Origin: Pseudomonadota bacterium
Lineage (GTDB): Bacteria; Desulfobacterota; Desulfarculia; Desulfarculales; Desulfarculaceae
NCBI GenBank assembly: GCA_018819925.1
Contig: JAHJPG010000087.1
Coordinates: 1 to 64,000 of the forward strand
Length of the DNA stretch: 64,000 nt
Direction: 5' to 3'
Shown one piece after another: positions 24,824 through 26,643 of this stretch (within the stretch, counting starts at the first letter, position 1; every line of letters starts with the position of its first letter). A model generated the notes under the pieces. It made no database searches, was not told where the DNA came from, and saw only the letters and a program-made list of their open reading frames with translations. Both the position numbers and the translations under genes were made by a program.

Positions 24824-25597
24824 ATGGAGATACATCCCACCGCGGTGGTTCACGAGAGCGCCCAACTGGCCCCCGGGGTCCAGGTGGGGGCCTACGCCTA
24901 CATCGGGCCCGAGGTCTCCATCGGGCCCGGCACCAGGGTTGACCACCACGCCGGCATAGAATGCCTCACCACCATCGGGGCCGACTGTCATGTCTGGCCC
25001 TTCGCCTCCATCGGCACCGACCCCCAGGACCTGAAGTTCGGTGGCGAGCGTACCTCCTTGCAGATCGGCGACCGGGTTCAGATCCGCGAATTCGTCACCA
25101 TGAACCGGGGGACCGGCGAGGGCGGAGGCGTGACCCGGGTGGGCGATGATTGCCTGTTCATGTCCTACTCCCACGTGGCCCACGACTGCCAATTGGGACA
25201 ACGGGTTATCATGGCCAACTCGGCAACCCTGGCCGGCCACGTGCATGTGGAGGACTTTGTCAACATCGGCGGCCTGGTGGCCATCCATCAGTTCACCCGA
25301 TTGGGCACCCGCGCCTTCATCGGAGGCATGAGCGGGGTGGCCCAGGACCAGCCCCCCTATTGCCTGTGCGAGGGCAACCGCTGCAAGCCCCACGGCATGA
25401 ACGTGATCGGACTGAGAAGGGCGGGTTTTGCCACCGAGACCATCGACGCCCTCAAGACCGCCTATCGTATTATCTTCCGCACCCACACCCCCATCCAAAA
25501 GGCCATGGACCAGGTGCGCGCCGAGGTTTCCGGCGTGCCCGAAGTGGACCACCTGCTGGATTTCATCGCCTCCAGTGAGCGGGGGGTTGCCCGCTAG
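24824..25597 (+). CDS. lpxA: UDP-N-acetylglucosamine acyltransferase
   Basis: This 257-residue enzyme performs the first step of lipid A synthesis. Hexapeptide repeats cover about residues 1-185 and a helical C-terminal domain follows. His120 in SYSHVAHDCQLG matches the catalytic histidine, and CEGNRCKPHGMNVIGLRR is the usual domain junction. Some relatives acylate the 3-amino sugar UDP-GlcNAc3N, a possibility here because of the Gfo/Idh gene downstream. The stop codon lies inside the left arm of the inverted-repeat element. Confidence 0.95.
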   Translation: MEIHPTAVVHESAQLAPGVQVGAYAYIGPEVSIGPGTRVDHHAGIECLTTIGADCHVWPFASIGTDPQDLKFGGERTSLQIGDRVQIREFVTMNRGTGEGGGVTRVGDDCLFMSYSHVAHDCQLGQRVIMANSATLAGHVHVEDFVNIGGLVAIHQFTRLGTRAFIGGMSGVAQDQPPYCLCEGNRCKPHGMNVIGLRRAGFATETIDALKTAYRIIFRTHTPIQKAMDQVRAEVSGVPEVDHLLDFIASSERGVAR

Positions 25598-25824
25598 CCT
25601 GGATATTTCATGAAGGCTGGGCGGTATTGAAAACTAATAAGTGTTTATGCGGTCTTCATGAATAACGCGTTTGCCTTATCCGGGAATTGCTCGTACCTGA
25701 GCCCGGCACAGCCAGCCGTCGGCAGACAAGGCGTCCGGCAAGCGAGGGCCATAGTCGTAGCCAAGGCTACGTCGAGGCCCGAGCGCAGCCGGACGCACGG
25801 CCTTCATGAAATATCCGGGCTAAC
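25593..25824. repeat. Inverted-repeat element (MITE-like) between lpxA and lpxI
   Basis: The left arm (25593-25619) and right arm (25798-25824) are 27-base inverted copies with three mismatches, sharing the core GGATATTTCATGAAGGC. Inside is a layered hairpin: GCGTCCGGC (25731-25739) with GCCGGACGC (25788-25796), GGGCC with GGCCC, and CGTAGCC with GGCTACG around AA. No reading frame of note is present. The element starts two bases before the lpxA stop codon and ends directly before the lpxI ribosome binding site, GGAGGG. This suits a non-autonomous mobile repeat, or a structured RNA element inside the operon. Confidence 0.75.
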
Positions 25825-25833
25825 GGAGGGAAG

Positions 25834-26643
25834 ATGGCAGGGCGCACCATAGGCCTGATCGCGGGCAAGAGCCAATTCCCCCTGCTTTTCGCCCGGGCCG
25901 CCCGGGCCCAAGGCCATCGGGTGGTGGCCGTGGCCTTCAAGGGCGAAGCCCTGCCCGCCTTGGAGCGGGAGGTGGACAGCATCACCTGGGTGAAGCTGGG
26001 CCAGTTGGGCACGCTGCTCAAGGCCTTCAAGAGCCAGGGAGTTGGCCAGGCGGCCATGTGCGGCGGGGTGACCAAGCCGCGCATGTTCGATATCAAGCCC
26101 GACCTCAAGGCGCTGGGGTTGCTCAAGAAGATTCGCCACATGGCCGACGACGGCATTTTGCGCGCCTTTGCCGCCTATCTGGGCGAGCAGGGCATAGAAA
26201 TATTGCCCAGCCACGAGCTGGTGCCCGAGCTGCTGGCCCGCCAGGTACGCTACACTTCCCGGGGGCCCAGCGCGCAGGAGCGGGATGACATCGAGGTGGG
26301 CTGGCAGGTGGCCGGTGAATTGGGCAAACTGGACATAGGCCAGTGCGTGGTGGTGCGGGGCAGGGCGGTGGTGGCGGTGGAGGCCATGGAGGGCACGGAC
26401 CAGTGCATTCGCCGGGGAGGCGAGTTGGCCGGCGGCCGGGAGGCGGTGGTCATCAAGCGCTGCAAACCCAACCAGGACCGCCGCTTCGACCTGCCTTCGG
26501 TGGGAGCCGACACCGTGGCGGTGATGGCCGCGGCCGGAGCTTCCTGTCTGGTGGTGGAGGCGGGGCGCACCTTGTTCTTCGATCCCAAGCAGGCCGTCCA
26601 ACTGGCCGAGGCCTCGGGCATCTGCATCCTGGGCCGGAATTAA
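25834..26643 (+). CDS. lpxI: UDP-2,3-diacylglucosamine diphosphatase LpxI
   Basis: This 269-residue protein (DUF1009) hydrolyses UDP-2,3-diacylglucosamine to lipid X, the fourth lipid A step. It replaces LpxH in bacteria that lack it. It opens GLIAGKSQFPLLFARAAR and contains the conserved KRCKPNQDRRFDLPSVG toward the C-terminus. Its position between lpxA and lpxB supports the call. GGAGGG precedes the ATG at 25834. Confidence 0.93.
   Translation: MAGRTIGLIAGKSQFPLLFARAARAQGHRVVAVAFKGEALPALEREVDSITWVKLGQLGTLLKAFKSQGVGQAAMCGGVTKPRMFDIKPDLKALGLLKKIRHMADDGILRAFAAYLGEQGIEILPSHELVPELLARQVRYTSRGPSAQERDDIEVGWQVAGELGKLDIGQCVVVRGRAVVAVEAMEGTDQCIRRGGELAGGREAVVIKRCKPNQDRRFDLPSVGADTVAVMAAAGASCLVVEAGRTLFFDPKQAVQLAEASGICILGRN

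Follow-up and report, generated by a model that had tools for sequence, protein, structure and literature searches.

The stretch of DNA analysed here, referred to as the window, spans 64,000 nucleotides and contains a lipid A gene cluster in which lpxD, fabZ, lpxA, lpxI, lpxB and msbA were all matched by profiles, with a short non-coding element lying at the lpxA-lpxI junction. The open reading frame of lpxA (24824-25597, plus strand) matched TIGR01852 at 3.1e-104 and ends in a TAG stop at 25595-25597, which is also the target site of the element. The gene downstream (25834-26643, plus strand) encodes a homologue of LpxI (UDP-2,3-diacylglucosamine diphosphatase), with a match to NF047836 at 7.6e-42 that falls under the curated cut-off of this model. 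Both matches confirm the neighbours named in a first-pass annotation of the window. That annotation had given the element as 232 bp at 25593-25824; family alignment and a census of copies corrected this to a plus-strand copy of 224 bp at 25597-25820, of a MITE with a consensus of 257 bp. Alternative bounds of 25598-25819 result if CTAG and CTAA are taken as a 4-bp target duplication.

Comparison of the two arms placed the left terminal inverted repeat, with IS1380-type ends, at 25597-25623 on the plus strand and the right one at 25794-25820 on the minus strand. Over these positions the repeats measure 27 bp with three mismatches, as first described, and the longer arms (33 nt each, at 25591-25623 and 25794-25826) reach 88% complementarity. 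The left target duplication, CTAG at 25594-25597, includes the lpxA stop and was assigned from the CTAG or TTAG found in empty sites of congeners and from YTAR duplications in other phyla. The right one, CTAA at 25820-25823, was assigned by comparison with the empty sites and differs from CTAG by one change. The left arm had been thought to supply the lpxA stop; the stop was there before, since insert-free congeners carry it within CTAG or TTAG, and what the insertion did was to duplicate it. The right arm had been read as ending at the lpxI Shine-Dalgarno sequence CGGAGG (25824-25829, plus strand); its right end stops 3 bases short of it. This sequence is retained from the empty site, as seen in the empty allele CTAGCGGAGGAAATATG in L094.

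The element has terminal inverted repeats and no transposase gene. As RNA it folds at -127.6 kcal/mol, compared with -87.9 kcal/mol for shuffled sequences (z = -8.0; none of 200 shuffles was as low), and the Rfam covariance models gave no match to it up to E = 1. Its interior holds a nested core palindrome (25703-25792; 122 bp in the consensus), which was delimited by the alignment, by solo cores with unrelated flanks and by a model census. From the core of the window copy 33 bp are missing, between two GCGCAGCC repeats. No other terminal inverted repeat was found in the window, in agreement with the first reading that it holds no second copy, and the nearest relative, a solo core, lies shortly beyond its edge at contig position 69839.

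Elsewhere the element proved to be abundant. The genome of origin contains 92 matching pieces, among them more than 20 near-complete copies with 72-84% identity. A search of 60 relatives was positive for the congeners (7 of 7) and Desulfocarbo indianensis alone, with 51 other relatives negative. The first-pass annotation had reasoned that a mobile element should have copies elsewhere, and the 72 full-length copies extracted from nine genomes of the host genus and Desulfocarbo exclude a sequence confined to this locus. Exactly 257 bp were found for 46 of the 72, and deletion forms shorter than the window copy also occur. Two pairs of copies are near-identical (L065 and L071 in G007; L077 and L086 in G010), which suggests, from their similarity, that the family was active comparatively recently in both genomes.

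Insert-free junctions, the comparison that the first annotation had proposed, were present in six congeners, where the lpxA TAG stop (in CTAG or TTAG) is directly followed by the lpxI start region, and likewise in Desulfocarbo; no relative examined has the insert here. For twelve other copies the joined flanks were searched within the genus, and uninterrupted alleles were found in relatives at most of these sites (e.g. L020, 95% identical to G004). The sequence before insertion was usually a stop codon in a CTAG, CTAA, TTAG or CTGA context. In two of the regions, L403 and L404, G001 carries the element too: the copy in L404 is an independent insertion at a position clearly different from that of the G000 copy, and the one in L403 may be either an independent insertion or of common origin with the G000 copy, both being compatible with the data. 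Outside the host family Desulfarculaceae, 29 of 44 elements among the matches listed had identical 4-bp flanks, all YTAR (CTAG, CTAA, TTAG or TTAA), compared with a mean of 14 in shuffles, 0 of 5000 of which came as high. Within Desulfarculaceae drift has commonly altered the 4-bp flanks (e.g. CTAG/CTAA), and the empty site of L010 reads CTGA; a 2-bp or irregular duplication may also be compatible with these drifted flanks and the CTGA site. Several copies (L001, L016, L020) show CTAA as the right target copy where the empty site has CTAG, possibly reflecting avoidance of CTAG.

The consensus of the terminal repeat, TAGCCCG(C/G)ATATTTCATGA, is present in several other phyla. Scanning 84,980 genomes with TAGCCCGSATATTTCATGARGG yielded at least 111 matching stretches, where by our estimate about one chance match is expected from composition. 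Taxa among the matches listed are Gammaproteobacteria, Magnetococcales, Neomarinimicrobiota, Fermentibacteria, Nitrospirota, Phycisphaerae, Verrucomicrobiales and Desulfarculaceae, and most complete end pairs among them lie 245-264 bp apart with differing interiors. In three cases these repeats bound IS1380 transposases (NF033539/PF13701): a 1565-bp element in Magnetococcales (L180; both ends exact, CTAA/CTAA flanks, PF13701 at 1e-107, reading frame interrupted), a 1679-bp element in Lysobacterales (L258; TTAG/TTAG flanks, transposase frame open) and a 1623-bp element with one exact end (L255). A full transposon with the same ends, also proposed as a check at the outset, thus exists in other taxa; in the host genus no intact IS1380 transposase was found, only fragments without these ends. 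Two decayed C-terminal transposase fragments lie in the host genome at G000:C5:46968-47237 (L233) and G000:C41:27656-27943 (L249). Among the other matches, a gammaproteobacterial MAG carries a 70-bp element made up of nearly just both terminal repeats, a perfect hairpin with CTAG/CCAG flanks (L172:2581-2650), and unrelated MITE interiors from different taxa (L123, L124, L151, L165, L195) have a TAGC...GCTA hairpin at their centre (CATAGCCGTAGCTATG, CGTAGCCAAAGCTACG and the like). No description of the terminal repeat was found in the literature searched. The element is a MITE family with IS1380-type ends, and the family is new. The number of copies, their constant length, the precise empty sites and the target duplications support the initial view of a non-coding, miniature transposable element, as do the terminal repeats shared with IS1380 elements that carry a transposase.

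In 51 of the 72 copies an end of the element serves as the stop codon for an adjoining gene (35 at the left end, 18 at the right), as counted with gene calls from our own uncurated method based on ORFs and GC by position. The window, at 65% GC, contains 142 YTAR sites, 80 of them within genes, 45 intergenic and 17 at stop codons. That YTAR is so often a stop codon in this GC-rich genome accounts for how precisely the element fits between lpxA and lpxI. Choice of target, together with elimination of harmful insertions, is enough to explain such a position with no special function in the lpx operon, and a preference for CTAG may raise the share of stop codons further.

The 122-bp palindrome (CCGGCACAGCCAGCC...GGCTGGCGCAGCCGG) occurs in full copies and also solo with unrelated flanks (L315, L317, L320, L321, L332 and L027-L030). 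A covariance model found at least 28-59 cores per genome in the nine positive genomes and none in other genomes; at most 59 candidates per genome were scored, and most congeners came close to that number. Having a second dispersed palindrome as its interior, the element is nested. Simple decay of full copies as the origin of the solo cores was ruled out, since their match to the consensus is about 84-97% and their flanks are mostly unrelated, a few having some 17 bp in common on the left side of the core; no obvious target duplication surrounds them. In Lysobacterales, 252-bp MITE copies are enlarged by inserted palindromic modules (GGCGCAGCCGC...; L129:4157-4481, L160:4853-5404, L161:419-899), so that nesting also occurs outside Desulfarculaceae.

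In an alignment of 44 copies, 96.5% of the pair cells were paired and changes on both sides were seen in 21 of 54 pairs, compared with 6.2 in shuffles. When the arms of all 72 copies were paired geometrically, G-U exceeded A-C by 191 to 24 cells and by 20 to 3 sites; the copies share ancestry, so that the cell counts overstate the evidence and the site counts are safer. Strand-biased mutation as the source of the G-U excess was ruled out by the balance of C>T and G>A changes at unpaired sites (0.074 versus 0.071 in one count, 0.108 versus 0.093 in another). The plus strand gave the more stable fold in 65 of 72 copies, and in the alignment-fold consensus the minus strand was much weaker (-26.9 versus -50.1 kcal/mol), single-copy folds being closer (-135 versus -122). 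The closing pair beside the TA was G-C, A-U or G-U, and A-C in 0 of 72 copies, though CTAA targets exist. With respect to neighbouring genes, 42 copies lie in sense and 14 in antisense orientation. The rare-state bias of G-U over A-C was alike in antisense (17:7) and sense copies (37:11), and the constraint therefore belongs to the element family and not to this operon. These patterns suggest that a plus-strand RNA fold of the family has been maintained, and we infer, from sequence comparison, selection on that fold.

Taken together, we consider it about 90% probable that the insert is a non-autonomous IS1380-type MITE that entered the CTAG of the lpxA stop, spread by means of a transposase supplied in trans and carries a dispersed core. 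The observations behind this reading are the multicopy family, the empty sites, the YTAR duplications in other phyla, the ends shared with IS1380, the placement at stop codons, the nested core and the strand-biased covariation; mobilisation of this MITE in trans by an IS1380 transposase is presumed. Most described bacterial MITEs are of the TA-target type, and a MITE of another family (IS630/Tc1-mariner or IS5/IS427 type) duplicating TA within a CTAG target would yield an identical sequence; L002, with an empty TTAG and a filled TTAG...CTAG, fits TA exactly. We nevertheless regard such an origin as improbable, given that the ends bound IS1380-family genes, that one insertion lies in CTGA and that elements of other phyla show 4-bp duplications including CTAA/CTAA and TTAG/TTAG, copies which also do not favour a duplication of TA only. 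Even less credible is that a RAYT (Y1) transposase moved a REP/BIME-type repeat. In favour of this, the solo cores are palindromic and lack evident duplications; against it, long terminal repeats bound the complete element and its family shows YTAR duplications, both typical of DDE elements. For the core alone, a REP/BIME-type origin could apply.

The strong covariation, the G-U excess in the arms at balanced C>T and G>A and the predominance of sense copies would also be in keeping with a domesticated host RNA regulating the lipid A operon, through lpxI expression or mRNA stability. This appears unlikely, as the relatives examined do without the insert at this junction, the window copy has the 33-bp deletion in its core and the G-U excess, similar in both orientations, is a property of the family; selection on the RNA within the host operon finds no support in the orientation of copies. 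For the IS1380-type MITE, DDE transposition into CTAG at the lpxA stop would have duplicated YTAR, the left duplicate retaining the stop and the lpxI ribosome-binding site staying intact beyond the right duplicate. The element would then have spread in the host genus and Desulfocarbo with a transposase acting in trans, since lost or unsampled, and the independently dispersed 122-bp palindromic core would have travelled inside it. As a tentative extension, the MITE may be one that seeks stop codons and has a selected plus-strand fold, insertion sparing the upstream gene and leaving a structured RNA spacer in the operon that is tolerated or useful.

The transposon piggyBac, for which IS1380 transposases have served as an outgroup, targets TTAA and variants that include CTAA and TTAG (PMC10813416), and the YTAR duplication of the MITE family resembles that TTAA. 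The MITE repeat CCCGGATATTTCATGA is identical or nearly so at IS1380 ends in Magnetococcales and Lysobacterales genomes; the MITE differs from these elements in having no transposase and in its length, 224-257 bp against their roughly 1.6 kb. For IS1247, an IS1380 element of Paracoccus, the listed duplication is 5-bp (PMC3281130). Like the enterobacterial ERIC/IRU and YPAL, which are intergenic MITEs co-transcribed with their neighbours as long stem-loop RNA and for which orientation matters (PMC2229807), the present element has a stable fold next to genes, but ERIC measures 127 bp, has TA ends and is unrelated in sequence to our element. Correia/NEMIS of Neisseria is also a MITE, with terminal repeats of about 25 bp and an RNA hairpin, that adjoins genes and can form part of their transcripts (PMC2229807); it has TA at its ends and unrelated terminal repeats. 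The pneumococcal RUP, BOX and SPRITE are small repeats that insert into each other (PMC10969869), yet their sequences are unrelated, and the nested form described here has become fixed and has multiplied as a single unit of 257 bp.

The asymmetry between G-U and A-C offers a cheap, generally applicable way of testing if a palindrome in DNA has been retained as RNA. The finding links a widespread terminal repeat of MITEs from several phyla to the IS1380/piggyBac-like group, and it provides a simple rule by which a YTAR target, overlapping TAA and TAG stops, leads to seamless placement between the genes of an operon.
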